A DNA stretch of 64,000 bases from Melanopsichium pennsylvanicum (lineage: Eukaryota; Basidiomycota; Ustilaginomycetes; Ustilaginales), in the NCBI GenBank assembly GCA_900208305.1, contig OAPG01000003.1, positions 124,001 to 188,000 on the forward strand. Reading direction: 5' to 3'. Positions 38,984-58,089 of this stretch are shown here, piece after piece. The notes under the pieces are model-generated. The model worked only from the letters and a program-made list of their open reading frames with translations, was not told the origin of the DNA and made no database searches. The number at the start of each line of letters is the position of its first letter. Position 1 is the stretch's first letter. The translations under genes were made by a program, and so were the position numbers.

Positions 38984-40310
38984 TGTCAGGGGCCAATTTG
39001 CCTAACTTGGGGTTCCGTTTGATACCCGGTGAAATCTGGGGTTTTATCGTGTTTCAAAATGAAACCCGCTGGAAATGCGTTCTGTATCCAATTTCACTCT
39101 GAGACCCGCTGGAACCGTCTGTTAGTGCCCCACCAACCATAGTCCAAAGAGTAGGCGCTTGGCCCCCCCTCCCAATTGAGCAACCATTGCAATCAAGCCA
39201 CAACTGATCCTCTCCGGATCCCTTGCAGAGGAGCGGTTGGCCTAACACAACCCTCCTACCATCCAACCGCGGCTGGCCCCTCCATAAGCAGAATACGGCC
39301 GTCAGCAATCTAACATTGTAGCGCCGCGGTGGGAGGTAATTACCGCAGTTGGCACGGGAGGTGGTCGATAGTTCTTGGACCTTACCACCCCGGCCCCGCC
39401 TGACATGAGGTTGCCTCCGGACCTTGTCGCATGTATTACTTAGTTAGCTCTATAGCAACGCAGTAGTGTGCTCTGACCCCAACTGCCTGTGTTGCCTACG
39501 CCTACGACCTCTCCGTACCTGTAGACCCTATTCCGGCTGTAGCCGCCCAGCGGTACCTGGACCCTACAACCTTAACATACCTAGACCCTACAGCCTTAAC
39601 ACCGTCCCGAGTTGACTAGCCCCCGTGAACACTCCGTTCAGCGGTAGTGCAGCTTGTCTAGATGATTGTGTGACCTGTGCTACACACAAGTGTCCTTAAT
39701 GCACACACTGGTCAAATCTACAATGTCTCATGCAAACTTGGGAGCCGTTGTTGTTGTCTGATAAGGCTACAGTGTGGGTTCCATTGCCACGGTTGAGGTT
39801 CCACCTACAGTGGAGGTGCTGTAGTGTCAGTAGAGGTGCTGACAGTTGTTGAGGATGTTTGGTTCCTCCAATGAGGAAGACACAACACTGTACTGCTGCA
39901 ATACCTGGTGATTGCAGCGGAGACAAGAAATAGATACTGAGAAACTTATGACATATATAACTAAGGTAATGAATAATAGAGTGGATGAGCTCCGCTCCTC
40001 CACAATTGAAACAAATGTCCTCTTATATCTATCAAGCCCTGCTTGGAGTTCTTATCAGGATCCCTCTTATCAGGGCCCCGTGCTTATCAGTGCTGGCTAC
40101 CAGAGCTAGTAGTTGCCTATTACTTTGACCCCAAATCCTACTGAGCCTGTTATCTGGGCCCTCTGTACCTGCCAGAGATCCTTCCAACTCTTGTAGCGGC
40201 TGTCTATGTCCTCTGGTACCTGTTCACGGCTTCCGGGAAGCGTCCAACCAAAATCAGCTGGAAACCCACCTTTTACCGGGACTCAATACAAAACCCAATA
40301 AAACCAAGGG
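38984..40310 (+). repeat. E1-related solo LTR, interrupted by another solo LTR
   Basis: Begins TGTCAGGGGC like the E1 LTR (TGTCAGGGGGC) and continues collinearly with it, including GTGAACACTCCGTTCAG and GTGCTGTAGTGTCAGT. The E2-family LTR at 39120-39601 interrupts it. No coding sequence is left and no target-site duplication was found; the right end is approximate. Confidence 0.7.
39120..39601 (+). repeat. Solo LTR of the E2 family inside an E1-type LTR
   Basis: TGTTAGTGCC ... CCTTAACA, 482 bp, flanked by the perfect 5-bp duplication CCGTC (39115-39119 and 39602-39606). The last ~25 bp (CCTAGACCCTACAGCCTTAACA type) appear twice in degenerate form, so the true end may be 39577 or 39601; the duplication favours 39601. 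Confidence 0.9.
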
Positions 40311-40737: not shown

Positions 40738-40978
40738 TGTTAAGGCCGTAGGGTCTAGTTACCGCGGGGCGGCTACAGCCGGGACAGTGTCTACGGGTAC
40801 GGAGAGGTTGTAGGCGTGGGCGACACAGGCGGTTGGGGGTCAGAGCACACTACTGCGTTGCTATAGAGCTAACTAAGTAATACATGCGACAAGGTCCGGA
40901 GGCAACCTCATGTCAGGCGGGGGCGGGGTGGTAAGGTACAGGAGCTATCGGCCACCTCCCACCGCGGCGTTACAATGT
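40738..40978 (-). repeat. Left part of a solo E2-family LTR split by element E3
   Basis: TGTTAAGGCC start of an inverted E2-family LTR. It is interrupted at 40978 by E3 and resumes at 63608, ending at 63798. The two parts sum to 432 bp, the size of one LTR. The outer duplication GTATA is perfect at 40733-40737 and 63799-63803. Confidence 0.93.
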
Positions 40979-41119: not shown

Positions 41120-41228
41120 TGGTGACAAGAGCGGTTTCATCCACGCTCCTCTCCATCTCCCACATACGCTCTCCTTACAGAATCCCGCATCCTCTCTCAA
41201 TCACCCTTTCCGACTTGGATATCACGAT

Positions 41229-42393
41229 TGTCAGGGGGCGTTGTGCCAAACTCAAGCTTCGCGCCGAGATCCGCTGAAACCGTCTGTTTTAGCGTGTTTG
41301 AGATTGAGACCTGATAAGCAGGCCGGTTCTATTGTGTTTCGCTATGAGACCTGCTGCGCGACTCTTGAGCTGACTGACCACTGTGAACACTCCGTTCAGA
41401 GGTAATGCGGCTCGTCTGTGTGTTGTAAGACCTTCACGATGCACGAGTGCTCTTGATGCAAGTGTTGGTCACCGTCAGGGACTGCTTTGGATGGTCTTGA
41501 AGCTGTCGTGATAATGAATTGGCTACGGTGGAGGTTCCGTGACCGCGGTTGGGGTTCCGCCTACAGTTGAGGTGCTGTAGTGTCAGTGATGGTGCTGACA
41601 ATCGTCGATGAAGCTTGTCTCCTTATACTGAGGAGAACACAGACACTGGATAGCTGCAATACCGTATGATTGCAGCTGCTGACGAGAACTATATACTGAG
41701 TAACTGATAACGACTTGTAAAGTAAAGACTGGGTTAATATAAAGTAGAGTGGATGAGTCCCGCTCCTCCACGACTGTAAAGACTGTGTTCTTATATACCT
41801 ATGGCCCTCCAGGGGCTCCCCTTTGTCCGCTATGACCCTGGTACACCAGAGTATCAATGGCCACCAGAGTTTCGACGTGTCCGCGAGCTTGGGCCCCGTG
41901 CTAATCAATGCCGACTGTCATCAACTATGACAACCACGAGCTTGGGCCCTGTGTTAAACAATGCTGACTGCCCTCAACTATGACAACCACGAGCTTGGGC
42001 CCCGTGTTAAACAATACCAACTGCCAGCAACCATGTCGCCCTTGAGCTTGGGCCCCGTGCTAACCAGTGCTGGCTGTCAGCAACCATGACACACACAGCG
42101 GACGGTAGCTTGGGCCCCGTGCTAACCAGTGCTGGCTGTCAGCAACCATGACACACACAGCGGACGGTAGCTTGGGCCCCGTGCTAACCAGTGCTGGCTG
42201 TCAGCAACCATGACACACACAGCGGACGGTCCTACATCATGTTGCACCCTTCCATCAGGCCTCCTGTACCAGACGGAGGCTGTCAGAGGGCGTTGCACTG
42301 ATATCGGATGAAACCACGTGTTCTAGCGGATGTCAACCTGAAACCCGATAGAACACAGTGTTTCACCGGGTTTGAAATCCACCTCCGGTAACA
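41229..42393 (-). repeat. E1 3' LTR
   Basis: 1,165 bp, TGTCAGGGGG ... GGTAACA on the plus strand (element orientation TGTTACC ... CCTGACA). Contains the repeat array at 41886-42230. Confidence 0.95.
41886..42230. repeat. Tandem array inside the E1 LTR
   Basis: Three near-identical 62-bp units (42046-42107, 42108-42169, 42170-42230; core CTTGGGCCCCGTGCTAACCA) follow three diverged ~53-bp versions. The same array sits in the other LTR at about 48861-49205, with equal copy number. Confidence 0.9.
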
Positions 42394-42406
42394 CTACCCC
42401 CCTTCC
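42394..42406 (-). promoter_or_regulatory. E1 polypurine tract
   Basis: GGAAGGGGGGTAG in element orientation, directly adjoining the 3' LTR, the expected primer site for plus-strand DNA synthesis. The rest of the gap to the pol stop (42407-42849) holds no gene. Confidence 0.8.
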
Positions 42407-42849
42407 AAGAACCGAGCTCCTGCGAGGTAATGAAGTCCGGCGGCGCAGAGAACTTAGCTTCTACCAGCCCTTATCCTCGGTGTACAACTCTTCTTTTGCA
42501 ATGGTCTTCATCATCTATTCCTATATCACCACAATCCTCCTGTGCAATCTTAATGCAACAGACTCGCCTGTATCATGTTGTAATTGCAATGTCTTGTTCC
42601 TTCTTACCATGTTTGTGTTGAAAAGCCTGTGACGTCGCCAACCGTTGCCTTCCACTTTCAGCCCCGGTGTATGAGATCCGATAGAATTACCACTTTAAGC
42701 GGGTTTCAACTGAGATCGGCTGCAGAGGGTTGTTTTATCGGATTTCAACTGAATTCGGATAAAACAGCGCGTTTTACCGGGTCTGAGATTCAAACCTAGC
42801 TTTCGCGATGCTTTGTCCCAAGGCAATCCGGGGCGGTTTTATGGTACTT

Positions 42850-45800
42850 CTACGCCGTCCCCCCCTCCAATTGCTCATACTCCTGGATGAGTTGGGGGGC
42901 GTTGACCGCCTCTGCTGGTTCCCATGAAGCTGCTTCCTCGGGATACCCTTTCCACTGGACCAAGTATTCCACCTGGCCTTGTCGCCGACGTATGTCAACA
43001 ATGGCTTCCACTTCGAATTCCAAGTCCTCATCATGCAATGTCGGATATGGTTGTATCGTTGAGCGTCCTTCTAGTTTGCTATCCTTTGTACGCTCGAGCA
43101 TTGAGACATGGAAGACGTTGTGAACCCTGACTGAACTTGGTAATTGAATTCGGTACGCCCTGCGGCCAATTCGCTCAATCACCGGGAATGGTCCAGCAAA
43201 CCTAGTGTTGAGCTTTGCTGTAGGTCGCCGAGTGGCCCAGTTCTTGGTACTGACGTAAACCCTGTCACCGACCTTGAACTCTATGTCCTTTCGTTTCCGG
43301 TTGTATTGTTTGACTGCCCGCAACTGTGCTTGCCTGGCTTGTTCTTGAAGGTATCGTACTAGCTCTTTGTTGGTTTTGGCAAATTCTTGGCGCTTGGGGT
43401 CCAGTATTCCCACTTGTTCTGGTAGCTCTGGGTGCATTTTAGGGTTCCACCCATAGCATGCAAAGAACGGGGACACCCCAATGCTGCTATGGACGGTGTT
43501 GTTATACACAAACTCCGCCATTGGCAACAAGCTTGCCCAGTTATCTTGCTCGTAGTTGCAATAGATACGCAAGTACTGCTCGACAACTTGATTCACCCGT
43601 TCCGTTTGACCATCTGTCTGAGGATGATATGCGGTGCTCAAAGAGTGTTTGATGTTGTGCTGTTGAGCAAAATCCTTCCAGATCGCAGAGATGAATTGTC
43701 GTCCTCGGTCCGATACGATATGTTCAGGCACCCCAAACCTCTTAAATACATGTGCCTGCAGTAGCTCGACCGTGTCCTTCGACGTTGCTGTCTTATGCGT
43801 TGGCATTACGACTGCAAGTTTTGAAAGCCGGTCAACCACAACCAGTATGGAATCAAAACCACTTGAGCTCGGCAAGCCTTCGATGAAATCGAGGGATATT
43901 GACCCCCAAGGTCTCTCTGGTGTCGATAGCGGCTGCAACAAGCCATATGGTTTGTGGCGCGGCGTCTTGTATCTCGCACACACAGGGCAGCTTGCCACAT
44001 AGTCTGCCACCCAAGCGGCCATGCCTGGCCACCAGTAGTGTCTGCGGGCAAGGTCTAAGGTAGCGTCTCGCCCAACGTGGCCCGCATTGATCCCATCGTG
44101 GCACTGTGTCATTACCATGTACCTTAAATGTTCCACAGATAGCGATTGTTTGGCTACCTGTGGCCTTGCTTTGCCCTTACGGCCGCCGAGGGTGACTCTT
44201 GGTACCACGATGCGCCCATTCTTATACCATAACCCATCCTTAATTTCAAACGGGGTGTGTTGGTGTATTTCCTTAAGCTGCTTGTCCAGTGGTTGGAATG
44301 TCCGGATGAGACTCATCAAGCCTCCCGTGGCTATCTCCTCCATGGTTGGTATCGTCGTCCTTAACCGGGTCTCAAGTTGAGATCCGGTGGTTGTACCATG
44401 TTTTATCCGATTTCGCGTCAAAATCGGGTAAGCTACCACGCTTTCATGCTGATTTGGATTTCCTTCCGGCGATTCAAACACGCTTGCCGGCAGCAGCTGC
44501 CGCATGTTGTGCTCTTTCTCCATTCCTGCCGGTTGCATGTCCGATCGCCGAGTGAGTGCATCAGGCTCTCCACCTTTGTTGCCAGGCCTGTAATGGAGCA
44601 CGAAGTCGTAGTCGGCGAGCACTACCGCCCAGCGAGCTTGTCGCCCGTTTATACGCCTCTGTGACTTGAAGTATTTGAGGGCTTCATGATCCGTGTAGAT
44701 GACCAGCTGACTTGGCAATCCTGCCAGCATATGTTGCCATTGCTGCAGGCACGCCACGACGGCGAGGAGTTCCTTATCATGGATCTCATAGTTCCTTTCG
44801 GCTGGTTGCATCTTTCTTGAGTAATAGGCCACAGGGTGCCAACGTTTCTTGTGCTCCTGCTTCAAGACTCCTGCTATGGCAAAATCGCTAGCGTCAGTCT
44901 CTAGGCGAGTCGGCAGATGGTAATCAAAATGCTTGAGTACTCCGGCCGTTGTGAAGGCCTCAATGAGCTTGTGGAAAGCGTGTTGGGCATCCTCTGGCAG
45001 CTCAAACTTCTTGAACCTCTCCGTCGGCTTGACCAACGAGGTGAGAGGCCTTGCAATTCGTGCAAAATGAGCAATGAACCTCCTATAGAAGTTGGCAAAC
45101 CCTAGGAATTGCTGGATATCGTGTATAGAGGCTGGCATCGGCCACTCCTGAATGGTTCGTACCTTCTCGGGGTCCATTTCAATCCCTCCTGGCTTAATGA
45201 TGTACCCCAGGAACTCGACCTGATCTGTATGGAAAGTGCATTTTGAGAGCTTGGCAAAGAGCCGGTTGGCTCGAAGCCTCTCCAAGACCTCCCGGACGTG
45301 ATCGATGTGCTCCTCCTCATTGTTGCTGAAGATGAGGAAGTCATCCAGATATACGACAACAAACACGCCAATGATGTCTCTATAGATACTGTTGATCAGA
45401 GACTGGAAATGCAATGGTGCGTTGGCCAACCCGAACGGCATCACCAAGTACTCGTACAATCCGAGCTGAGTACCAAAAGCTGTTTTCCATTCATCGCCGT
45501 CTGCGATGCGAACCAGGTTATATGCAGCCTTAAGGTCCAGCTTAGTATATACCTTTGCATTACGGAGTAAGAATAGTTGCTCCTCAATGAGGGGCAGCGG
45601 CGCTCTATTCTTAATTGTGATCTCATTGAGACCACGGTAATCGACGCAGAGACGTAGGCTCCCGTCCTTCTTGGGCACAAACAGGACTGGCGAGCGTGCA
45701 GGGCTCTTCGACGGTCGAATGAATCCCTTTGTGAGGTTCTCGTCAAGGTACTTGCGCAGTTCCTCCATCTCCTTAGGACCCTTCAGATAGAGCGGGCCTT

Positions 45801-46689
45801 GAGGAGGTTTTGCTCCCAATTCGAGCTCTATCTTGAGGTCGTGTTCGGTCCGGTGGGGTAGCTTGTCTGCTTCGACCTCGTTAAAGACCTCGGCAAGGTC
45901 CTGGTAAGGCTCCGGTACCTGCTCCGGGGGCTTGTCCTTCTCAACTTCCATGTCAACCCCTTTGTCTGCCCCGGTAGGGACAAACCCAAAGGCTGGCAAC
46001 GACGTTGCCGGAACGTCGAGAAGCATGAACCCAATGGGTCCATCTTCAACGGCAGCCCTTAGAAGCTGCTTGGCCGATACAAACTCGTGACCGTGGAGCT
46101 TGAAGTCCAGAACCGGCACCCTGTTCTGGCGGGTTTTGGTTGAAATTCGCTGAACTGACCCGTCCTGTCGGGTCTCGTTTGAAATCCGATAAAACGCGTT
46201 GTTTAATCGGGTTTTGTGTGGGGCCCCGGTTTGTGGAGTAAATTCGCAGGGTTCGGCGTTCGTTGTCATCCCAAACTCCACTCGACCTTCCTCCCAATTG
46301 ATTGAGGGTCGGAGCTTACGCAACTGATCATAGCCTATGATAAGGTCATAATCCGCCGCCTCGGCGACCGCTACTTCCACCTGTCCCAGTGAATAGTGGT
46401 CGATACTTACCTGTACAACGGCGGTATGGTCTATGTACATCTTGTGACCCGTTACGCCGTGAATCGATCTTGTTTTTGTAGGTTTTGTGGTTATCTTGTG
46501 GTCCGAAACAAATGCTTGTGAAAGTATAGACAAGCCAGCACCGGTATCTGCGAGTATGCGAGCTCCATGGCCCTCAACGGTGCCCTTGAGTTCGAGTACC
46601 GAGGAACCCGATGTGGCTGTGAAACAGAATTGGCAATCTTGAGCAATGCATTGCGATGGCATAGGTGGTCGTAGGGCAAGACACGCCAT
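42850..46689 (-). CDS. pol: E1 pol polyprotein (PR-RT-RNaseH-IN-chromodomain)
   Basis: 1,279 codons from the ATG at 46689. Domains in order: retropepsin with DTGAG at about residue 48; reverse transcriptase with YLDDFLIFS at about 447-455; RNase H (TDASDFAIAGVL ... ELLAVV ... YTDHEAL ... DALTRR, about 597-715); integrase zinc finger (H-x-x-x-x-H ... CPVCARYK, about 860-905); D,D-35-E core (FIEGLP ... DRGRQFISAIW ... TDGQTERVNQ, about 935-1050); and a C-terminal chromodomain (EVEAIVDIRRRQGQVEYLVQWKGY, about 1225-1275). The order RH-IN-CHD marks a chromovirus. The frame is -1 relative to gag and is open upstream of the ATG as far as the slippery site at 46710-46716, so a Gag-Pol fusion is possible. 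No stop or frameshift is visible. Confidence 0.95.
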   Translation of the reverse strand: MACLALRPPMPSQCIAQDCQFCFTATSGSSVLELKGTVEGHGARILADTGAGLSILSQAFVSDHKITTKPTKTRSIHGVTGHKMYIDHTAVVQVSIDHYSLGQVEVAVAEAADYDLIIGYDQLRKLRPSINWEEGRVEFGMTTNAEPCEFTPQTGAPHKTRLNNAFYRISNETRQDGSVQRISTKTRQNRVPVLDFKLHGHEFVSAKQLLRAAVEDGPIGFMLLDVPATSLPAFGFVPTGADKGVDMEVEKDKPPEQVPEPYQDLAEVFNEVEADKLPHRTEHDLKIELELGAKPPQGPLYLKGPKEMEELRKYLDENLTKGFIRPSKSPARSPVLFVPKKDGSLRLCVDYRGLNEITIKNRAPLPLIEEQLFLLRNAKVYTKLDLKAAYNLVRIADGDEWKTAFGTQLGLYEYLVMPFGLANAPLHFQSLINSIYRDIIGVFVVVYLDDFLIFSNNEEEHIDHVREVLERLRANRLFAKLSKCTFHTDQVEFLGYIIKPGGIEMDPEKVRTIQEWPMPASIHDIQQFLGFANFYRRFIAHFARIARPLTSLVKPTERFKKFELPEDAQHAFHKLIEAFTTAGVLKHFDYHLPTRLETDASDFAIAGVLKQEHKKRWHPVAYYSRKMQPAERNYEIHDKELLAVVACLQQWQHMLAGLPSQLVIYTDHEALKYFKSQRRINGRQARWAVVLADYDFVLHYRPGNKGGEPDALTRRSDMQPAGMEKEHNMRQLLPASVFESPEGNPNQHESVVAYPILTRNRIKHGTTTGSQLETRLRTTIPTMEEIATGGLMSLIRTFQPLDKQLKEIHQHTPFEIKDGLWYKNGRIVVPRVTLGGRKGKARPQVAKQSLSVEHLRYMVMTQCHDGINAGHVGRDATLDLARRHYWWPGMAAWVADYVASCPVCARYKTPRHKPYGLLQPLSTPERPWGSISLDFIEGLPSSSGFDSILVVVDRLSKLAVVMPTHKTATSKDTVELLQAHVFKRFGVPEHIVSDRGRQFISAIWKDFAQQHNIKHSLSTAYHPQTDGQTERVNQVVEQYLRIYCNYEQDNWASLLPMAEFVYNNTVHSSIGVSPFFACYGWNPKMHPELPEQVGILDPKRQEFAKTNKELVRYLQEQARQAQLRAVKQYNRKRKDIEFKVGDRVYVSTKNWATRRPTAKLNTRFAGPFPVIERIGRRAYRIQLPSSVRVHNVFHVSMLERTKDSKLEGRSTIQPYPTLHDEDLEFEVEAIVDIRRRQGQVEYLVQWKGYPEEAASWEPAEAVNAPQLIQEYEQLEGGTA

Positions 46690-48074
46690 CAGTGTGCTGC
46701 CCCACTCTCGTTTCCCTGCCTGTCGTCAGGATCTCCTTCGGGGTTACTCGTGCCTTCGTCGTCATAGACTGCAGCTTCTAGGTCCAGCTGGGGCTCGCCC
46801 TCGTAATTGGCCTCCTCAGGTTCCTGCTGTATATCCTCCCTGCCTTCCTCATCTGCGATGACAACGTTCGCTCCCACACGAGGTCCTGATGGCCTGACGA
46901 CCGCATGAGTTGTCTTTTGAGGACAGTTGTTGGACCAGTGGCCTGGCTTCTTGCAGATGTAGCAAGTGTCACTCCCCACGGTTGTGGGTCCAGCTCGAGC
47001 AGGGGTGCGTGGAGCCAGGTGGGGAGGCGGCGCCCGATTGGCAATTGGTATACCCTGAGGGGTATAGCTGGCCCTTGGAGCTTGCTGGGCTGGCTTGGGC
47101 GTGGCCTGGAGTCCTCCAACGGGTCTGTTAACGGCCATCGGTGGGCCAGATGGCATGTACGCCGGCCTGGACGACTCCGTTGGTGGAATCGAGTGCCATC
47201 GTTGGGCTTGCTGGTTTACCACCCGCTGCCGGTCGATGGCTTCAACCTTGGCGTACCACTCCCAAAGCGATGGGGGTGGGCTTCGCTCAAACTTCTCCTG
47301 CAGGCTGCGAGAGAGTCCCGAGCGGAAGTAGTACTTTGCGAGCTCCTGGTCGCCGATGTTGGCTCGGCCTTCAAGGTCCCTAAACCGTTCAAGGTACCTG
47401 GTGGCCGTGCCGGGACAGTCGTCCTGCATACGCAGCTTCTGAAGCTCCGTGATGGCCTCAAGCCTCAGGTCTCGCTGTCCATATTGTTCCTTGAGTCTCT
47501 GTGTGAACATATTCCAGTCGTTGAAGAGGATGCCTTGCTGTTGGCGGTTGGCCCTTAGCTTAGACTTCCACCATTCTCGAGCACTGCCCTCGAGGAACTG
47601 ACTGGTGTAAGCGACCATCTTACCATGGTCCCGGATACCCTTCATCCTGAACCACCACTCAGCCTCGATGAGGAACATGTCCATATCCTTGAGGTCCATC
47701 TTCGGGAACGGGGTCTTGAGTTCCGTTGGCCACTTGGCCTCCTCGTCGTCTTTCGACTGCGGGGCTGACTCTCCAGGCGGCCTACTTACCACTGCTTCGG
47801 TGGCCAATCCTAAGGCCGGGGGGAGTTCCGTGGGCGCAACCTGTCGTCTAGCCCCGGTTGGGGTAGAGTAGAGCTCGTACAAGCGAGCTCTGTTGCCCTT
47901 GTCGTCGTCTGGCCGGTTTCGGGCCGTAGGCGTCGGTGTCTCCGGCTCTGGGCGGTATGATACCTCCAGGCGGACGAGCACACGTTCCACCAACGACTGG
48001 AGTCTGTCGATGCTCTGGTCCGTCCTCTTCTGTCGGGCTTCAACTTCCTCGATGTGATTCTTGAAGTCTTTCAT
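46689..48074 (-). CDS. gag: E1 gag
   Basis: 461 aa. A basic/coiled N terminus (KNHIEEVEARQKRTDQSIDRLQSLVERVL) precedes a retrotransposon Gag capsid region (about 165-260: FLIEAEWWFRMKG ... SQFLEGSAREWWKSKL). A zinc knuckle C-x2-C-x4-H-x4-C (CYICKKPGHWSNNC) lies at about residue 368, then an acidic tail. It builds the virus-like particle and binds RNA. Its TGA stop shares one base with the pol ATG (TGATG). Confidence 0.94.
   Translation of the reverse strand: MKDFKNHIEEVEARQKRTDQSIDRLQSLVERVLVRLEVSYRPEPETPTPTARNRPDDDKGNRARLYELYSTPTGARRQVAPTELPPALGLATEAVVSRPPGESAPQSKDDEEAKWPTELKTPFPKMDLKDMDMFLIEAEWWFRMKGIRDHGKMVAYTSQFLEGSAREWWKSKLRANRQQQGILFNDWNMFTQRLKEQYGQRDLRLEAITELQKLRMQDDCPGTATRYLERFRDLEGRANIGDQELAKYYFRSGLSRSLQEKFERSPPPSLWEWYAKVEAIDRQRVVNQQAQRWHSIPPTESSRPAYMPSGPPMAVNRPVGGLQATPKPAQQAPRASYTPQGIPIANRAPPPHLAPRTPARAGPTTVGSDTCYICKKPGHWSNNCPQKTTHAVVRPSGPRVGANVVIADEEGREDIQQEPEEANYEGEPQLDLEAAVYDDEGTSNPEGDPDDRQGNESGAAH
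46710..46716 (-). promoter_or_regulatory. E1 candidate -1 ribosomal frameshift site GGGAAAC
   Basis: In the gag frame the heptamer reads G GGA AAC, exactly in phase for -1 slippage, 8 codons before the gag stop. The -1 frame continues without stop into pol. Seven bases downstream, GGGCA/TGCCC and ACAC/GTGT can pair into a two-part stem. GGGAAAC is an established retroviral frameshift heptamer; use here is inferred. Confidence 0.65.
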
Positions 48075-48203
48075 CTTTGTCAGTCATTGACCCGTGGTGT
48101 CATAGAGCGTCTGGAACAGGGGTCGTCCCGTCTGCTCCGGAGTCCGGGGTCGGGATTTGTCTGTCATATTGGCGAGGGGCACTACTTGAACGATCCACTC
48201 TAA

Positions 48204-49368
48204 TGTCAGGGGGCGTTGTGCCAAACTCAAGCTTTGCGCCGAGATCTGCTGAAACCGTCTGTTTTAGCGTGTTTGAGATTGAGACCTGATAAGCAGGCCG
48301 GTTCTATTGTGTTTCGCTATGAGACCTGCTGCGCAACTCTTGAGCTGACTGACCACTGTGAACACTCCGTTCAGAGGTAATGCGGCTCGTCTGTGTGTTG
48401 TAAGACCTTCACGATGCACGAGTGCTCTTGATGCAAGTGTTGGTCACCGTCAGGGACTGCTTTGGATGGTCTTGAAGCTGTCGTGATAATGAATTGGCTA
48501 CGGTGGAGGTTCCGTGACCGCGGTTGAGGTTCCGCCTACAGTTGAGGTGCTGTAGTGTCAGTGATGGTGCTGACAATCGTCGATGAAGCTTGTCTCCTTA
48601 TACTGAGGAGAACACAGACACTGGATAGCTGCAATACCGTATGATTGCAGCTGCTGACAAGAACTATATACTGAGTAACTGATAACGACTTGTAAAGTAA
48701 AGACTGGGTTAATATAAAGTAGAGTGGATGAGTCCCGCTCCTCCACGACTGTAAAGACTGTGTTCTTATATACCTATGGCCCTCCAGGGGCTCCCCTTTG
48801 TCCGCTATGACCCTGGTACACCAGAGTATCAATGGCCACCAGAGTTTCGACGTGTCCGCGAGCTTGGGCCCCGTGCTAATCAATGCCGACTGTCATCAAC
48901 TATGACAACCACGAGCTTGGGCCCTGTGTTAAACAATGCTGACTGCCCTCAACTATGACAACCACGAGCTTGGGCCCCGTGTTAAACAATACCAACTGCC
49001 AGCAACCATGTCGCCCTTGAGCTTGGGCCCCGTGCTAACCAGTGCTGGCTGTCAGCAACCATGACACACACAGCGGACGGTAGCTTGGGCCCCGTGCTAA
49101 CCAGTGCTGGCTGTCAGCAACCATGACACACACAGCGGACGGTAGCTTGGGCCCCGTGCTAACCAGTGCTGGCTGTCAGCAACCATGACACACACAGCGG
49201 ACGGTCCTACATCATGTTGCACCCTTCCATCAGGCCTCCTGTACCAGACGGAGGCTGTCAGAGGGCGTTGCACTGATATCGGATGAAACCACGTGTTCTA
49301 GCGGATGTCAACCTGAAACCCGATAGAACACAGTGTTTCACCGGGTTTGAAATCCACCTCCGGTAACA
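48204..49368 (-). repeat. E1 5' LTR
   Basis: 1,165 bp, same length as the partner LTR and different at five positions, all transitions. Just inside (48203 downward) the element reads TTAGAGTGGATCGTTCAAG; the TGG six bases in may start the primer-binding site, but no tRNA match was established. Confidence 0.94.
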
Positions 49369-49584: not shown

Positions 49585-50497
49585 ATGGTCCAGACCCGAC
49601 AAGGGGCCGAGTCAGCACAACAAGGGGGGGAAGCAGCAGCCTCAGCTTCCATCTCTGCTTCGCCTGAAGTAGTCATCCCTCCACCCACCGTTGAAGCCAT
49701 TGTTGCCGCCGTCTCAACGCAATTCAACAAGACGCTCGACGAGCGTTTCAAGGAGTTTGCCGACTCTCTCCCAACTTTGATCCAGCCTCGACAACGCGAG
49801 TCTGAGATTCAGAAACGGCAACGTCTGGAAGCCGAATGGGCAAAAGAAGCCAGGCTCGCCAGAGAGCGCTTCCTCCGCCGCCACGGTATTGGCATCAGCG
49901 TTGACGAGGATACCAACGCATCCGACTTTGACGTCTCACCGACGCCAGCTCTCCCTGCATCCATCGTCCCAGCCGCCTCCCGCCGCCCGTCTGTCAAGCT
50001 GGAAGACATTGGAACGTTCGACGGCAGCTCGGACACTTTGGAGTTCTTCCTCGGCAGAGTCTCCGCCCTCGTCGAGAGCCAGCAAGACCCAGCTTGGGAG
50101 TCCGCCATTATCGAAATCCTTCCTCTCTGTCTTCGCGACACGGCCTCACAGTGGTACCAGCTGCTAGGGTCCTCCACCCGCCGTAAGCTCAACACGAGTT
50201 GGTCCGAGTGGGAAAGCGCTCTGCGCAACGCCTTCCAGCCCGACGCCAGCAAGATTCGTCGTCTGGCAGACGAACGACGCTGGGATTGGTCCAAAGAATC
50301 GATCGCCGCATACTTCTATGCGAAGTTGTCTCTTCTGCGCGCCGCATACCCCACCCGTCAAGAGGCTGATCTCCTTCACGAGATCAGGTTGGGCTTGCCC
50401 TCATCGCTACAACTGGACGTCCGTTCGCATATGGCGGCCAACCCCAACATGGACAAACTCCTTATCAAGCTGCGAAATCTCGAAGGTCCGTGGCGCG
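49585..50497 (+). pseudogene. gag: E3 gag, 5' part (interrupted by E2)
   Basis: Opens at the ATG at 49585 (MVQTRQGAES). A disordered N terminus and coiled segment precede a Gag capsid-like region (FDGSSDTLEFFLGRVSAL ... LRDTASQWYQLLG ... WSEWESALRNAF). After 304 codons plus one base the frame meets the E2 insertion. The rest continues in phase at 58090-58697, so apart from the insertion the gene is intact (about 506 aa). Confidence 0.9.
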
Positions 50498-50927
50498 TGT
50501 TAGTGCCTACCAACCGGAGTCCAAAGAGGGGGTGCTCGGCCCCCCTCCCGATTGAGCGATCGTCGTGATCGGGCCCCGACCGACCCTCTCCGGACCCCTC
50601 GCAGCGGAGCGGTCGGCCTGACACGATCCTCCTACCGCCCAACCGCGGCTGGCCCCTCCGTACGTAGAATACGACCGTCGGCAACCTAACATTGTAACGC
50701 CGCGGTGGGAAGTGACCGATAGTTCCTGTACCTTACCACCCCGCCCCCGCCTGACATGAGATTGCCTCCGGACCTCGTCGCATGTATTACTTAGTTAGCT
50801 CTATAGCAACGCAGTAGTGTGCTCTGACCCCCGACCGCCTGTGTCGCCCCGCCTACAACCTCTCCGTACCCGTAGCCTCCATCCCGGCTGTAGCCGCCCG
50901 CGGTATCTAGACCCTACAGCCTTAACA
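50498..50927 (+). repeat. E2 5' LTR
   Basis: TGTTAGTGCC ... CAGCCTTAACA, 430 bp, with short inverted termini TGTTA/TAACA. Confidence 0.95.
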
Positions 50928-50966
50928 TTACATGCGACCTCCCCACGGGACGACGTTGTAACCAAG

Positions 50967-52202
50967 ATGAGTACACGCTCCAACCGACGAAACCAAACGG
51001 ACGCCTCCCCCCAAGCGGAGGGAGACGCTCCCACCATCTCCCCCAGCGGAGACGAGCCCGCCAGCGTTGTTGCACCCTCGGGCGAACCGCCCGCCGCCCT
51101 GACCACCTTGGTCCAAGGGCAAGTGGATATCCTGGCGCTTCTGCGTGAAACCTCTGAACAACAGCGGCGCATTACCGCTCTGCTAGAGGCCGCCTTCTTC
51201 CCCAGGGAGGATCAACCTAGACCGGAGTCTTCTCAGCACTACCAAGGAGCAACCGCTGCCCAGGTCCCCCTGCCAACCGTAGCCCCCGTCTACGTGGAGG
51301 CCGCGCCCCGCGAGCCAGAGATTCGACTCCAGGCTCCGGAATGGGACGGCAGCCAAGACAAACTGGAGGACTTCTTGGATCAATGCGAACTCAACTTCGA
51401 GGCTAATCCCTCCAAGTTTCCGACGGATGCCCGTCGCATCATGTTTGCCATCGGCAACATGACGGGCAAACCACGAACCCGCATTCGCAATGTGCGACAA
51501 CAGGAGGGGGAGGATCCGCCCTGGATGAGCTCCTGGAGGGCCTTTTGCGCCGACCTCCGTCGCGTCCATGGCGATCCCGACCCCAGCTACACCGCACGCC
51601 TCCAACTGAATGCCCTCCGCCAGAAGGGATCAGTATCGGAGCACGCGGCGGAGTTCATGTCGCTGACGGCCAAATCGCACCTGACCGACCAGCAGCAGGC
51701 GTTGATGCTGTTCGAACAAAGCCTCCGGCCGCGCCTACGGGAAAAGCTCACCCACGTGCCGATGACCGACATCCGTGACTTCATCAACGCCGCCATTGTC
51801 ACGGAGCGCCGGATGCAGGTGATACAGGAGGCCACGACAAGACCCGCGGAGTCACAGCTGCGACACCGACCGCCCCTCCCAGCCGTGACGGCCAAACGAG
51901 AGCCCCCGGAGGGACCCCGCAAAATGGAACGACCTCCACTACCGGCCAAGGACCCTACGCGTGATGCGGCGGAACGCCTCCGCCAGCACCGACGGACCAA
52001 CGGGCAGTGCTTTGGCTGCGGTGGCAGCAACCATTTGGCCCGTGACTGCCCGAAGGCGCCCCAAACACAAACTCTCCGGGCACACGCTATTTCATTCGAC
52101 AACGATTCCGGGACTATACTCGTCAACCCCATGGATGACGGGTCAGCCTCCAACCCCGACAGTGACCTATCGGATTCGGAGGATCCCCCGGAGGGAAACT
52201 AA
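50967..52202 (+). CDS. gag: E2 gag
   Basis: 411 aa from the first ATG after the LTR (MSTRSNRRNQTD). Proline-rich N terminus, a short coiled segment (LVQGQVDILALLRETSEQQRR), a Gag capsid-like region (about 115-260; EWDGSQDKLEDFLDQCEL, then AFCADLRRVHG) and a zinc knuckle CFGCGGSNHLARDC at about 348-361. It ends GGA AAC TAA, so the stop directly follows the slippery heptamer. The frame is also open upstream into the LTR, but a start there would not be on the mRNA of a normal element. Confidence 0.93.
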   Translation: MSTRSNRRNQTDASPQAEGDAPTISPSGDEPASVVAPSGEPPAALTTLVQGQVDILALLRETSEQQRRITALLEAAFFPREDQPRPESSQHYQGATAAQVPLPTVAPVYVEAAPREPEIRLQAPEWDGSQDKLEDFLDQCELNFEANPSKFPTDARRIMFAIGNMTGKPRTRIRNVRQQEGEDPPWMSSWRAFCADLRRVHGDPDPSYTARLQLNALRQKGSVSEHAAEFMSLTAKSHLTDQQQALMLFEQSLRPRLREKLTHVPMTDIRDFINAAIVTERRMQVIQEATTRPAESQLRHRPPLPAVTAKREPPEGPRKMERPPLPAKDPTRDAAERLRQHRRTNGQCFGCGGSNHLARDCPKAPQTQTLRAHAISFDNDSGTILVNPMDDGSASNPDSDLSDSEDPPEGN

Positions 52203-52237
52203 GGGTCGATGGGTTCTTTCGGTCCGAACCCATCGAC
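52193..52237 (+). promoter_or_regulatory. E2 -1 ribosomal frameshift signal (GGGAAAC plus hairpin)
   Basis: The heptamer GGGAAAC (52193-52199) is in phase (G GGA AAC), followed by the gag stop, a 5-nt spacer, and a perfect 12-bp stem GTCGATGGGTTC (52205-52216) / GAACCCATCGAC (52226-52237) around a 9-nt loop. Slippage by -1 enters the pol frame at 52199. Layout matches the textbook retroviral signal. Confidence 0.85.
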
Positions 52238-55200
52238 AACCTAAGCCAGCTCCGGGTGCTCGCCGCAGCATTCTGGGCAGCCCACCGGACCGACACTCCC
52301 GTCGTGGAGCAAGAGGGATCCGTTCTCCGGATCCATCGACACCCTACCTTACCAACCTACAAATGCTTGGTAAGCGTCGGCGACACGCAAGGCCTTGCCT
52401 TGCTCGATACCGGCGCCACCGCCTCTTTCATTACTCCCAAAATGGTCGCAACGGCCAACATTCCTACCCACTCCCTCCGTAAATCCGTCCACGCCACATT
52501 CCTCCAGGGCATGTTGGCCGCCATCAGTCGCCACGCGGCGGTGGATATCATCATCAACAACCACTGCATCACCTCACGCCACCGACTCTTCATCACCCCC
52601 ATGACCTCCCACGACGTGCTGTTGGGGATGGATTGGATCGAGGCCGCCAGGCCGGAGCCAAACTATACCCTCCGTACGTGGGACCTCCGGGTCCCCCACA
52701 CCGTCACGGTGCCCTCCAACCCCAAAATCGAAAAGAACGAACTCCACAACTTGGTCGGCCGGCGACAGCTGGTCTCCACTGAGGAGGACCTGCTGGTCCT
52801 CCCAGAACCGGAAGAGGAGCTACTGCCCCTCCAAGCTTCCGCGACCGACCTCGCCGCCCTACCGCCAGAATACCGCAAGTACGCCGACGTCTTCGACGCC
52901 AAGAGGGCCGACCAACTGCCTCCCCACCGCCCACACGACCACAAGATCAACCTGGAGGCTGGCAAAAGCCCTCCCTACGGCGCACTCTACTCCCTGTCGC
53001 ACCGCAAACAAGAGGAGCTCCGGAACTACCTCCGGAAGATGCAGGCCATTGGCTTCATCCGACCGTCGAGTAGCCAAGCTGCCGCGCCCCTCCTTTTTGT
53101 ACCAAAAAAGGACGGTCGCCTCCGGCTGTGTGTGGACTACCGGGCCCTCAACGCCATCACCGTCAAGGATTGCTACCCGATCCCCCTCATCTCCGAACAC
53201 CTTGATCGGCTGGCGATGGCCAAGATCTTCACTAAATTCGATCTGAAGGGTGCCTACAACCTCCTCCGGATCGCCCCCGGCCACAAATGGAAGACCGCAT
53301 TCCGCACGCGCTACGGCAGCTACAAATACCTAGTCATGCCGTTTGGCCTCTGCAACGCTCCGGCGACCTTCCAACGGCTCATGAACCACGTGCTGTCGGA
53401 TCTCTTAGACGTGTCCGTCATCGTATATCTGGACGACATCCTAGTCTTCTCCGACAACGAGGCCGACCACCACCACCACGTCTGCCAAGTGTTGGATCGA
53501 TTACGGAAGCATCAGCTGTATTGCGCTCCGGACAAATGCAAATTCCACACCAACTCCGTCGAGTTCCTCGGCTACCTCGTCAGTCCCGACGGCCTCTCCA
53601 TGGACCCGACCAAGGTCAGTACAGTCTTGGAGTGGCCGCCACCACAGTCGATCCGACAGATCCAAGTCTTCCTCGGATTCGCCAACTTCTACCGTCGCTT
53701 CATCCGCCACTATTCTTGTGTAGCGGCCCCCCTCACCGACCTCCTGAAAGGAGGAGCCTCCGGAAAGGTAGATCTGCCCCCGGAAGCAACGGCAGCCTTC
53801 AACCGGCTGAAAGAAGCGTTCACCTCTGCCCCTATCCTCCGGCACTTCTCTCCAACGCTCTACACTGTCGTCGAAACAGACGCGAGCGATGCTGTGGTAG
53901 CCGCCGTGCTGTCGCAGTGGCACCCACAGCCGGGCGCCGACGCGAGCGCCGAGCCCAACAGCCGCTCGCATACCCTCCATCCTGTGGCATACTGGTCGCA
54001 AAAGATGATCCCGGCGGAGCGTAACTACGAAATCCACGACAAGGAACTCCTGGCTATCGTAGACGCCTGCGGCGCTTGGAGACACTACCTCCATGGCCTC
54101 ACCCGACCGTTCCTCATTTACACCGACCACCAGGCGCTCCAGTATTTTCAGACGAAGCGACAACTCAACCGTCGCCAAGCCCGCTGGCAAGCCGACCTGG
54201 CTGAGTTCGACTTCGTCCTCCACTACCGTCCGGGTAAGGAGGCCGTCCGCCCCGACGCTCTGAGTCGCCGGCACAACTTGTTCCCCGACGGACCGTCGCG
54301 CCCAGACCCCGCCAACCAAGCCACTCTCCTCCCTGCAAACTTGTTTGCAAGGGCAGCCGGCGTACACTCCTTGGACCCCCTGCCTACGGAGTGGATCGAA
54401 ACCCTCCGGAAAGCGGCCAACCTCCCCCCAAACGTTGCCGTCCGCGATGGTGTCCCGTACACCACAGAGGGTCACGTCTACCTGCCACCCCAATTACGGG
54501 ACAAGGCACTCCACCTACTGCACGACCACCCTACGGCAGGACATCCTGGCCGCAAGACAACCCTCCATCTCATGCGTCAATGTTTTTACTGGCCAACCAT
54601 GGCGCAGGACACCGACAGCTATGTCGCCTCTTGCGCGGCCTGCCAAAGGGCAAAACACCCCCGTCACAAACCCCACGGCTACCTTCTCCCGTCGGTCCCT
54701 CCCGATCGGCCGTGGTCCACTATTACCATGGACCACATCACTGACCTCCCGCCCTCCCTTGCCAACGGCACCACCTACAACTCCATTCTTGTAGTCGTCG
54801 ACCGCCTCACCAAGTTTGTGGTCTTCATTCCTGCAAACAAAACCGATACGGCGGAGACTTTGGCGTACCAGCTCCACCGCTACGTCTTTTCATACTTTGG
54901 CCTCCCGGACACCATTGTATCTGACCGAGGAACCACGTTTGTAGCTTCCGTTTGGACGGAACTCCTCCGGGCCCTCCGGATTAAAGGGTCTTACTCGTTG
55001 GCCTACCACCCTCAAACAAATGGCCAGACCGAGCGAGCCAACCAGACGCTGGAGTTGTTCCTCCGCTTCTATACGGCCTACGACCACAGCAACTGGGCAA
55101 CCCTCCTGCCGACAGCCCAGCTCGCGCTGAACCAAAGACCGTCGGCGACCACAACCATCGCCCCGGCTATAGCTTGCTTCACATTTGCACCTCGGGCACA

Positions 55201-55447
55201 CCCCTCCATCCCCCCGGCCACCTCCAACGTTCCGTCGGCGGATAAAGTGCGGGTGTGCCAGGACGCCATCGCCAAAGCCAACCTTGCCGTCGCGAAGTGG
55301 TTTAACCGTCGCAGGAGCGACGTCTCGTTCCGCCGGGGGGACCTGGTGCTCCTCCGTACCAAGCACCTCCGCAGCGACCGACCCTCCCACAAGCTCTCCA
55401 ACCCCCTCGCCGGCCCGTTCAAAGTCGACGAGGTGATTAACGACTGA
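52199..55447 (+). CDS. pol: E2 pol (PR-RT-RNaseH-IN), ends at an in-frame stop
   Basis: Frame -1 to gag, entered by frameshifting; no ATG is needed. Protease LLDTGATASFITP, reverse transcriptase with YLDDILVFS, RNase H (ETDASDAVVAAVL ... DKELLAIVDA ... YTDHQALQYF ... DALSRR), integrase zinc finger (HPTAGHPGRKTT ... CAACQRAK) and D,D-35-E core (MDHITDLPP, SDRGTTFVASVW, TNGQTERANQ) occur in the normal chromovirus order. Translation stops at TGA 55445-55447 inside the conserved segment that normally reads xxAYRLxLPPSWKxHPVFHV. The same frame resumes immediately and encodes the chromodomain. Confidence 0.93.
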   Translation, partial: LRVDGFFRSEPIDNLSQLRVLAAAFWAAHRTDTPVVEQEGSVLRIHRHPTLPTYKCLVSVGDTQGLALLDTGATASFITPKMVATANIPTHSLRKSVHATFLQGMLAAISRHAAVDIIINNHCITSRHRLFITPMTSHDVLLGMDWIEAARPEPNYTLRTWDLRVPHTVTVPSNPKIEKNELHNLVGRRQLVSTEEDLLVLPEPEEELLPLQASATDLAALPPEYRKYADVFDAKRADQLPPHRPHDHKINLEAGKSPPYGALYSLSHRKQEELRNYLRKMQAIGFIRPSSSQAAAPLLFVPKKDGRLRLCVDYRALNAITVKDCYPIPLISEHLDRLAMAKIFTKFDLKGAYNLLRIAPGHKWKTAFRTRYGSYKYLVMPFGLCNAPATFQRLMNHVLSDLLDVSVIVYLDDILVFSDNEADHHHHVCQVLDRLRKHQLYCAPDKCKFHTNSVEFLGYLVSPDGLSMDPTKVSTVLEWPPPQSIRQIQVFLGFANFYRRFIRHYSCVAAPLTDLLKGGASGKVDLPPEATAAFNRLKEAFTSAPILRHFSPTLYTVVETDASDAVVAAVLSQWHPQPGADASAEPNSRSHTLHPVAYWSQKMIPAERNYEIHDKELLAIVDACGAWRHYLHGLTRPFLIYTDHQALQYFQTKRQLNRRQARWQADLAEFDFVLHYRPGKEAVRPDALSRRHNLFPDGPSRPDPANQATLLPANLFARAAGVHSLDPLPTEWIETLRKAANLPPNVAVRDGVPYTTEGHVYLPPQLRDKALHLLHDHPTAGHPGRKTTLHLMRQCFYWPTMAQDTDSYVASCAACQRAKHPRHKPHGYLLPSVPPDRPWSTITMDHITDLPPSLANGTTYNSILVVVDRLTKFVVFIPANKTDTAETLAYQLHRYVFSYFGLPDTIVSDRGTTFVASVWTELLRALRIKGSYSLAYHPQTNGQTERANQTLELFLRFYTAYDHSNWATLLPTAQLALNQRPSATTTIAPAIACFTFAPRAHPSIPPATSNVPSADKVRVCQDAIAKANLAVAKWFNRRRSDVSFRRGDLVLLRTKHLRSDRPSHKLSNPLAGPFKVDEVIND

Positions 55448-55762
55448 GCCTACCGACTCCTCCTGCCTCCGTCGTGGAAGGTCCATCCCGTCTTTCACGT
55501 ACAGATGCTGGAGCCATACCCCGACGGAGTCAGGGAGTCCAGCAACGCCCCCCAACCGACTACTCTGGAGGACGACTACGCCGATTTCGAAGTCGAGGGC
55601 GTATTGGACTCCCGCCGCCGCGCCGGACGCCTACAGTACAAGGTCTCCTGGGTAGGGTACCCCCCAAGCTGGGTCCCGGCGGAAGACGTGGACCGCGCCC
55701 TGGATCTGGTCGCTGCGTACCACGCCGCAAATCCGACCAAGCCAGCTCCTACCCGGCGTTAG
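55448..55762 (+). pseudogene. pol: E2 pol C-terminal tail with chromodomain, cut off by the TGA
   Basis: Continues pol in the same frame: AYRLLLPPSWKVHPVFHVQM, then a chromodomain-like segment (FEVEGVLDSRRRAGRLQYKVSWVGYPPSWVPAEDV). Everything but the single stop is intact. A CGA to TGA change at a CpG is a simple explanation, but the ancestral codon is not known. Readthrough cannot be excluded. Confidence 0.85.
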
Positions 55763-55944
55763 GCACGGATACGAGCGACGGTCGCCGTCGGGAGACCCCC
55801 CGCCGGAGCCAAAACCCCTCCGGTCCCCGACCTCTGGGGTAGGAGACCCGGTCGGGCTCCCCTCACCCCCACTCCCACACACGGACACACACACACGCAA
55901 GCGACAGAAAAGAAAACAAGTGCATTCGAGGAGGGGCCCCGGGG

Positions 55945-57353
55945 CTAGTCCCTCAGGAAGCCCTCCAACCACGCCCAGACCACGTCCACCTGCTGTCGCG
56001 TGTTCTGCGACAGTTGCTGGATCTCGCTGATCCGGCGGAGCTCTCGCTCGCCGCCGGTCCTCAGCGACTCTGTCAGCAACAGCGCAGCCACGTCGGCCAG
56101 CCCCTGTTGAAATAACTCAGTCCCCTCCTGCACCCCGTGGAAGAGGGACTCGGCACGCCTTACGGCCGCACCCAGGTCCCCCAGGCCCGTAGCGGACTCC
56201 CCCGGCTGGCCTTGGGCCCGCGCCCGAGTGCGACGCCGCTCTCGGGCAGCCTCGGCTGGACGGTCGGGGCGAGACCTAGCTCGCTTGCGAGCCGCCTCCC
56301 GCTCCCGACCCACCGCGCCCACCCAAGCCACCTCCTCCCTCAGTTCCTCCTCCTCCTCCGGGATCTCGCCAAGTGTCCTCAGCGACAACCTGACGTTGGG
56401 GTGGGGGCGGCGACGCCGACCGACCCCTCCGGACCTCCACCTCTCAAGCAAGCACGCGTAAACCCTCATTTGGAGGGGACCTTGGGCGCCGCCAAGTGGT
56501 GGGACTGTCGAGGAAAACAAAAGGAGGAACAAGAGTCAGCCGACCACCCAAGACATTGCGACAGACGCCCGACGGAAATACTTACCGCGCATATCCGCGT
56601 CGCAGGGTTGCCCGTGCTGCCCCTGACACCGACAGCAGCGGAGATCGCCTCCCGCCCGCTCACAGGCAACGCCGGCGCATACGCAGGCGTAGCAATCGCC
56701 CCAAGTCTCGGCCCATAGCGGGGCAAGGTCTGTCGTATTGGCCACGGAAACACAAACGTCAGTAGCGATCCCAATCAACACAGCAATGGAACAAATACTT
56801 ACCATCACCAACGAGTTCCGGAGTGATCTCGATGGGAACCGAAGGACGCGACCACGGCATCGAATTCCGGGGCGCCAGGACAAGGGAAGTGTGGGTCAAT
56901 GCAGAGGAGGGAAGGGCCGACGGATCGGCAGACTGTTGACGCATGGCGCGCTTGCGACGGCCCGAGTTGGCCCCCCGGGAAAGGTGAGCACGCGGGGAGC
57001 GGCGCACCCCCCGGATGGGACCAGCGGAGGTCTCCGACGGCCGATCTGTCGTAATCGAAACAAGGGGGGAGGGAACAAATGTCAGTAACCCATTCCACGG
57101 CACCGACCGGTGGTTGTCAGACCCTCTGGGCCCCCCATCCACAACCGAATCACGACGGAACCACAACCGACTCACCTCCGGAAGCGGGTAATGTTGTTGT
57201 TGTTGTTGTTGCTGTTGTTGTTGTTGCTGCTGCTGCTGTTGCCGACGCTGCCGCCGTCGCGGACGTAGGCAATGGAGGGGGAACGGTACTGATACCGGCC
57301 GACGGGTTGTCGGCCGGGGAATCCATGGAAGCGTCTGCTGGTGACGACGACAT
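55945..57353 (-). CDS. Antisense four-exon gene inside E2: cysteine-cluster protein
   Basis: Exons 57176-57353, 56803-57045, 56586-56729 and 55945-56504. Introns 57046-57175, 56730-56802 and 56505-56585 start GTGAGT, GTAAGT and GTAAGT, all end GACAG, and each has a CTGAC branch-like motif upstream of the acceptor. All four exons join in phase to 374 aa. The product has an Ala/Thr-rich start encoded by a GTT/GCT repeat, an Arg-rich segment, and a cluster C-x2-C-x6-C-x8-C-x2-C-x7-C at residues 153-183. After this come a basic NLS-like stretch (about 250-275) and a helical C-terminal part (ESLFHGVQEG ... QVDVVWAWLEGFL) that may be coiled coil. The paired half-clusters recall zinc-binding proteins expanded in basidiomycetes; function unknown. 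A TATAAGG (57414-57420) favours the start at 57353; an ATG at 57413 would add 20 residues. It converges with pol and lies fully within the element boundaries. Confidence 0.82.
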
Positions 57354-57654
57354 TGCGAAAAAAGAATGGGGAAGAATGGGGGAAATCGAGAAGGAAGACC
57401 CGTCGACCCCCATCCTTATATCCCCCCTCGATAGCTACGCACGAGCAATGGCGCACAGTCAATTCCGCCGGTCCAAGGCATTGTGGGTGGTATTGCCTCA
57501 TTGCTGCGCATCCGCGATTAAATTGCCGAGACGAGCGTTGCAACTTGTACAGAGAGGCGCCCCTGGCGCGGATTAAGGTTGAGGGAGTACGACCCCCCTT
57601 GCCCTCCTGTCCTATCAGCCGCCTGGGGACCAGTCGGCCTGAACCGGGGGGTAA

Positions 57655-58084
57655 TGTTAGTGCCTACCAACCGGAGTCCAAAGAGGGGGTGCTCGGCCCC
57701 CCTCCCAATTGAGCGATCGTCGTGATCGGGCCCCGACCGACCCTCTCCGGACCCCTCGCAGCGGAGCGGTCGGCCTGACACGATCCTCGTACCGCCCAAC
57801 CGCGGCTGGCCCCTCCGTACGTAGAATACGACCGTCGGCAACCTAACATTGTAACGCCGCGGTGGGAAGTGACCGATAGTTCCTGTACCTTACCACCCCG
57901 CCCCCGCCTGACATGAGATTGCCTCCGGACCTCGTCGCATGTATTACTTAGTTAGCTCTATAGCAACGCAGTAGTGTGCTCTGACCCCCGACCGCCTATG
58001 TCGCCCTGCCTACAACCTCTCCGTACCCGTAGCCTCCATCCCGGCTGTAGCCGCCCGCGGTATCTAGACCCTACAGCCTTAACA
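57655..58084 (+). repeat. E2 3' LTR
   Basis: 430 bp, same length as the 5' LTR, with 4 differences (three transitions, one transversion). A GGGGGGTAA run (57646-57654) just upstream is the likely polypurine primer. Confidence 0.95.
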
Positions 58085-58089
58085 GCGCG

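Follow-up and report, generated by a model that had tools for sequence, protein, structure and literature searches.

Introns are normally erased by reverse transcription, and HBZ of HTLV-1 is a spliced gene that encodes a bZIP protein. HBZ and its relatives are antisense and nuclear, as described in PMC11963269, and the plant genes grouped as aORF-3R, which lie antisense between pol and the 3′ LTR, include gene23 of Grande and the genes of RIRE2, Retand (TRP28) and PvRetro13 (PMC7264820, PMC11963269). For Grande gene23, a promoter of its own and a nuclear product are reported in PMC7264820. In Botrytis cinerea, the Boty-like elements carry the antisense extra gene brtn (Zhao et al. 2011, as cited in PMC8365987 and PMC4227169). 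The word "intron" does not occur in the main text of PMC7264820 or of PMC11963269, nor does "antisense" in the main text of PMC9603552, which deals with smut retrotransposons. In the literature searched, where brtn is represented by the papers that cite it, we came across no fungal LTR element described as having an antisense gene with introns. Antisense genes are known from a few plant and fungal elements, and one with several well-preserved introns appears to be unusual.

Here, we describe an antisense gene within an LTR retrotransposon of a smut-like host, found in a stretch of 64 kb (C3:124001-188000, hereafter the window) of a genome that was searched over 21.1 Mb in 61 contigs. We propose, with a probability of about 0.6, that the element carries a fixed minus-strand accessory protein gene, which would be transcribed antisense and spliced, and whose product would, though less surely, be a nuclear trans-acting regulator. 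The original prediction had taken this gene for an undescribed system, which is too strong in view of the plant antisense genes at the same place (PMC7264820, PMC11963269) and of brtn in the Boty-like elements of Botrytis. What appears to be new, judging from the sequence, is that the antisense gene has several introns, is under selection and belongs to an element of a smut-like host. Lying antisense between the end of pol and the 3′ LTR, the gene has the position that defines aORF-3R; it differs from the plant genes in its fungal host, in its chromovirus carrier and in having three small introns whose splice motifs are constrained. By description it resembles brtn, which is likewise an additional antisense gene of a fungal gag-pol element that has a chromodomain. 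Like HBZ, it is an antisense accessory gene close to the 3′ LTR, and being spliced, nuclear and regulatory are features of HBZ; in contrast to HBZ, its protein has no bZIP match in Pfam and its carrier is not a virus.

The carrier is a Ty3/gypsy chromodomain element (window 50498-58084), and its gag and protease-RT-RNase H-integrase order, its chromodomain and its LTRs with target-site duplications (TSD) are those of a chromovirus. The 5′ LTR (50498-50927, plus strand, TG..CA) and the 3′ LTR (57655-58084, plus strand) are 430 bp each, with four differences between them, and are flanked by the TSD GCGCG at 50493-50497 and 58085-58089. Right after the 5′ LTR, a putative primer-binding site (50929-50938, plus strand) is complementary to the 10 nt GTCGCATGTA within the LTR (LTR position 280), a word that was recovered in 1 of 2000 shuffled LTRs, and this complement is a candidate for self-priming. 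Priming through a complement within the element's own RNA is known from Tf1/sushi-type elements. On the plus strand follow gag (50967-52202), which has a match of Ty3 capsid-like type and, slightly below the Pfam cut-off, a zinc knuckle, pol (52256-55447), encoding protease, RT, RNase H and integrase, and a chromodomain segment in the pol frame (55505-55762). In the window copy, pol is closed before the chromodomain by an in-frame TGA (55445-55447), giving an open-frame value of 1093 compared with 1198 in many other copies; hence, this copy may be non-autonomous. The ORFs that flank the element (49585-50568 and from 58239), with a second RT at C3:184281, are read as another, interrupted Ty3-type element.

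The antisense gene sits between the end of the chromodomain/pol region and the 3′ LTR, on the minus strand, and the structure originally predicted was confirmed: four exons join in phase through three introns, with a single stop codon at the end of the spliced frame and a product of 374 aa, or 394 aa from an upstream ATG. Exon 1 (57176-57353, starting with the ATG at 57353 or, optionally, with the one at 57413) is followed by intron 1 (57046-57175, 130 nt, GTGAGT..GACAG), exon 2 (56803-57045), intron 2 (56730-56802, 73 nt, GTAAGT..GACAG), exon 3 (56586-56729), which encodes a Cys cluster of spacing CX2CX6CX8CX2CX7C, intron 3 (56505-56585, 81 nt, GTAAGT..GACAG) and exon 4 (55945-56504, stop included), whose product is predicted to be helical in its C-terminal half. 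The GTRAGT donors, CTGAC branch-like motifs and GACAG acceptors that had been pointed out are present in all three introns, with CTGAC 28-35 nt upstream of the intron end. Within the 1469 bp of the gene, the strict donor-branch-acceptor pattern is found three times, and the other strand of the gene has none; across the 64-kb window it occurs four times on the minus strand, the three of the gene included, and not on the plus strand. Three such patterns were reached by 0 of 3000 first-order Markov sequences. In U. bromivora, 67.9% of the genes are reported as intronless and 12.8% as having several introns (PMC5106213).

Upstream of the gene lies the TATA-like motif GATATAAGG (57414-57422, minus strand), which is identical in all 35 aligned copies and lies outside the 3′ LTR, 233 bp away, a possible point of difference from HBZ-like genes, whose transcription starts in the 3′ LTR. 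Its TATAAGG (57420-57414) immediately adjoins the ATG at 57413. Since a start site about 30 nt below TATAAGG would leave out this ATG, the 374-aa start is likelier than the 394-aa start.

We then looked for the gene elsewhere in the genome. With the exon-4 protein (185 aa) as a query against the whole genome, 43 candidates gave 42 matches, 38 over the whole query and four partial; the 38 whole places have 94-100% identity, and two of them have an in-frame stop. A DNA search with the gene region gave at least 67 matches, with 40 of 109 first-look candidates scored, so that these counts are lower bounds. For the alignment, 40 loci and the window copy made 41 sequences, and the removal of L015 and L044-L048, in which the gene or a flank was incomplete, left 35 (the window copy and those of L009-L043); the whole exon-4 places absent from it are C8:514920 and two within L015 and L044. 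The gene recurs in the other copies, and its absence from them, the outcome named beforehand as speaking against it, was not observed. In all 35 aligned copies with both flanks, it lies inside the element and none is free-standing; together with the LTRs and the TSD GCGCG on both sides in the window, this bears out its assignment to the element. Exon 4 lies antisense within 5 kb downstream of 30 of the 38 RT places of the family (RT identity at least 89%); among the remaining eight, four have exon 4 at 5.4-11.8 kb downstream, two are at contig ends and two (C3:4549 and C1:2097661) fall under neither case. The antisense gene is thus present in most copies of the element, as expected of an aORF-3R.

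The gene had also been described as host-type, and a captured host gene, carried as antisense cargo by transduction and kept for the benefit of the host, would account for its host-like architecture of introns and a TATA box; the introns would then indicate that it did not enter via a spliced mRNA. However, among the own-genome matches listed (E up to 10), all 46 of exon 3 and all 42 of exon 4 are at or beside copies or fragments of the element and none lies outside them, which leaves the host-type label unsupported; with the gene inside the element in every aligned copy, we consider such a capture improbable. A second alternative is that the antisense gene encodes a repressor of the family that carries it, a copy-number control that is kept since the host is spared. 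Copy-number control of this kind is known for Ty1 in yeast, through p22, a protein derived from gag. The same anatomy and the same evidence of selection would be expected of such a self-limiting gene, but the 38 whole exon-4 places of 94-100% identity imply that spread was not stopped outright, and the protein has no gag domain match, unlike the Ty1 control protein; this explanation is rather unlikely.

The spliced frame is open to a common stop in 33 of the 35 aligned copies, the exceptions being L025, with a 5-bp loss in exon 1 and also a stop in exon 4, and L041, with a stop. In L009 the ATG is replaced by ATT, and in L024 intron 1 begins with AT instead of GT, which leaves 31 of 35 copies fully regular; 209 of 210 splice dinucleotides are retained. 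Exon 3 is always 144 nt and exon 4 always 560 nt, exon 2 is 243, 234 or 225 nt, and exon 1 varies from 169 to 202 nt in steps of three except in L025; the introns are 128-130, 72-73 and 80-81 nt long. The exon length changes are multiples of three with the 5-bp loss as the sole exception, a count in which the triplet repeats of exon 1 favour multiples of three regardless. The introns have four distinct one-base indels in 284 columns, and the exons have one frame-breaking indel in about 1125 columns. In 32 copies (the near-duplicates L009, L020 and L034 left out), 3 of 1344 splice-motif positions differ, compared with 231 of the 7744 remaining intron positions; counted by column, which is the fairer figure because the copies are related, 3 of 42 splice-motif columns are variable, compared with 67 of 242 other intron columns (p = 0.003). 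A duplicated start region (57353-57413) marks a subfamily of 23 of the 35 copies and adds 16 in-frame codons before the usual ATG; in all 22 subfamily copies measured, one of the 23 not having been caught by the pattern, two ATGs lie in frame exactly 48 nt apart, whereas the T-rich tract upstream ranges from 10 to 19 nt. We also considered the unspliced frame as the true product and rejected it, as every one of the 35 copies, when read unspliced from the ATG, runs into 3-13 stops, and none stays open beyond codon 87. Open-frame values at exon 4 reached 588 aa in one search; in another, most of these places gave 196 aa.

For the codon-level analysis, the mutation pattern had to be taken into account. 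At noncoding positions of the 35 aligned copies, C-to-T and G-to-A changes affect 0.47 and 0.41 of CpG positions, compared with 0.14 and 0.09 of the others. This CpG excess suggests methylation with deamination, or a RIP-like process; three DNA-methylase matches are present in the genome, at two places. Over all sites, omega is 0.77 for the antisense gene (p = 0.03), 0.99 and 1.47 for its shifted frames, 0.53 for gag and 0.66 for pol, with 1.09 for exon 1 and 0.84 for exon 3 (p = 0.40). With CpG sites excluded, a filter that was picked after the weaker all-site results had been seen, omega is 0.53 for the whole gene (p = 7e-4) and 0.42 for exons 2-4 (p = 1e-4), compared with 1.11 and 2.29 for the shifted frames. 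By exon, the non-CpG values are 0.97 for exon 1, which evolves neutrally, 0.37 for exon 2, 1.20 for exon 3 (p = 0.72, on eight changes) and 0.39 for exon 4. Significant constraint was not found for exon 3 alone, though the Cys cluster is there. On the same measure, gag (0.20), pol (0.31) and the chromodomain (0.22) are under stronger amino-acid constraint than the antisense gene, a comparison in which the gag and pol samples are smaller (14-18 copies per piece, some partial, with L025 also kept in the non-CpG test). The pairwise dN/dS is 0.61, and mapping on a tree gave an omega of 0.82 for the inner branches, with p = 0.18, and of 1.08 for the terminal branches. Omega is 1.11 for shared variants and 0.56 for singletons (p = 0.002), in the same order as for gag (0.85 and 0.39); it is odd that this runs opposite to the prediction of old selection with later decay, and gag has the same pattern. 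The dN/dS comparison that the original prediction had called for thus indicates constraint in its non-CpG form, whereas the all-site and tree-mapped values are weaker, and heavy CpG change in the genome is a likely cause of the weak initial result.

The other outcome named as telling against the gene, random substitution across exons and introns alike, was not what we saw: exons, introns and splice motifs differ in constraint, as the splice-motif counts and the non-CpG omega of exons 2-4 show. The constraint on the frame, on the splice motifs and on non-CpG omega argues for a protein-coding gene with spliced exons that is an accessory of the element, and against a chance frame. A chance open frame, or the remnant of another nested element, might be entertained since nesting is common in the genome and exon 1 is of low complexity and neutral, but three such introns arose in none of the Markov sequences, both the splice-motif and the codon tests detected selection, and no copy among the 35 aligned is free-standing; this reading is extremely unlikely. 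If instead the antisense RNA were functional and not the protein, it could form dsRNA or small RNAs by pairing with the genomic RNA, or interfere with sense transcription. Any antisense transcript of the gene would overlap the genomic RNA, and a single match to a Piwi-domain (Argonaute-type) gene is present in the host. However, this would leave unexplained why non-CpG omega is below one in the spliced frame only, why frame-breaking exon indels are rare, why the start duplication keeps the frame over 48 nt and why the splice motifs are constrained, so that a purely RNA-level function seems doubtful. With the many-copy evidence for protein-level selection, a role of the gene as a helper, as a repressor or as a suppressor of silencing can be put to a direct test, and a fungal system is added to those of plants.

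The predicted product has a low-complexity N-terminus, a basic stretch, the Cys cluster and a charged C-terminus that is predicted to be helical. The Cys cluster has eight Cys in 31 residues in the window copy and two others, and seven in the other 31 readable copies, in which one Cys is R; the CX2CX6CX8CX2CX7C spacing is invariant in 34 of 35 copies. The Zn2Cys6 pattern arose at a frequency of 0.0007 in shuffles of exon 3 and of 0.003 in 31-mer shuffles with fixed ends. PF00172 was not matched by the protein; it matches 76 places in the genome (73 over the cut-off), none of them at an exon-3 place. The spacing thus resembles a zinc cluster, and the protein does not qualify as a member of the Zn(II)2Cys6 family. 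Searches of Pfam and PDB with the whole protein and with exon 3, and of Pfam with exon 4, gave nothing convincing, and a scan of IMG/VR with exon 4 gave 79 stretches that fit a pattern and no relatives. The plant aORF-3R proteins, likewise, are without clear relatives, and our Pfam search gave no TRP28 match for the present protein. A model of exon 4, made with no alignment, has long helices, with a block of pLDDT 73-80 over the last 75 residues and a mean of 61, and the model of exon 3 folded alone (mean pLDDT 55) is uninformative; both are of low to middling confidence. The nucleic-acid or chromatin binding that had been suggested for the paired Cys half-clusters is therefore weakly founded: the Cys spacing fits Zn2Cys6, but no Pfam family matches.

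Taken together, we favour the accessory protein gene proposed above, which could work as follows. The gene would be transcribed from its own promoter, to which the TATA motif in 35 of 35 copies points, against the direction of gag-pol, and the host spliceosome would remove the three introns from the antisense mRNA. The genomic (sense) RNA would hold these introns as their reverse complement, in which they would go unrecognised, so that reverse transcription would pass the intron-bearing gene on unchanged. The introns would thus survive copying, and the prediction that they persist agrees with the 35 of 35 aligned copies that keep all three. Three constrained introns in a retroelement gene provide a clean natural case of opposite-strand coding escaping intron loss. 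The product may act in the nucleus as a zinc-binding trans-acting regulator of the element, which, by analogy with Grande gene23 and HBZ, would most likely counter host silencing or tune LTR transcription; the nuclear regulatory role is our best guess, drawn from the same two analogies. The introns themselves might be a strategy of the element, where backward coding keeps well-spliced introns that mark the antisense transcript as "self" and let it evade surveillance of intronless or badly spliced RNA. Intronless RNA is treated as foreign by HUSH in human cells, as described in PMC8770142, and RNAi in Cryptococcus is triggered via stalled spliceosomes, according to PMC6643885. The present host has kept an Argonaute-type gene, and among intron positions the splice motifs are the most constrained; we nevertheless hold such a strategy to be a speculative and improbable addition.

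Other elements and fragments were observed in the window and beyond. A sister family, with an RT identity of 58-61%, occurs at 65 genomic places; in the one copy examined, pol is separated from the LTR by less than 500 bp (from window 42850 to about 42390), which is too short for such a gene. The sister-family element in the window (about 41228-49365, minus strand, LTR ends placed by eye) has 53- and 62-bp tandem repeats within its LTRs. Diverged LTR-like remnants related to the LTR of the carrier, identified by eye, lie in both orientations at window 39139-39590 and about 40762-40975. Near-identical copies were found at C3:494734-499202 (L002, L009) and at C2:108-123 kb (L019, L020), and that on C3 has a second RT at a distance equal to that beside the window copy; these copies look like segmental duplications and not separate insertions. 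At C8:45503-46394, three LTR pieces of the element family, two partial (232 bp) and one full, are arranged head-to-tail.
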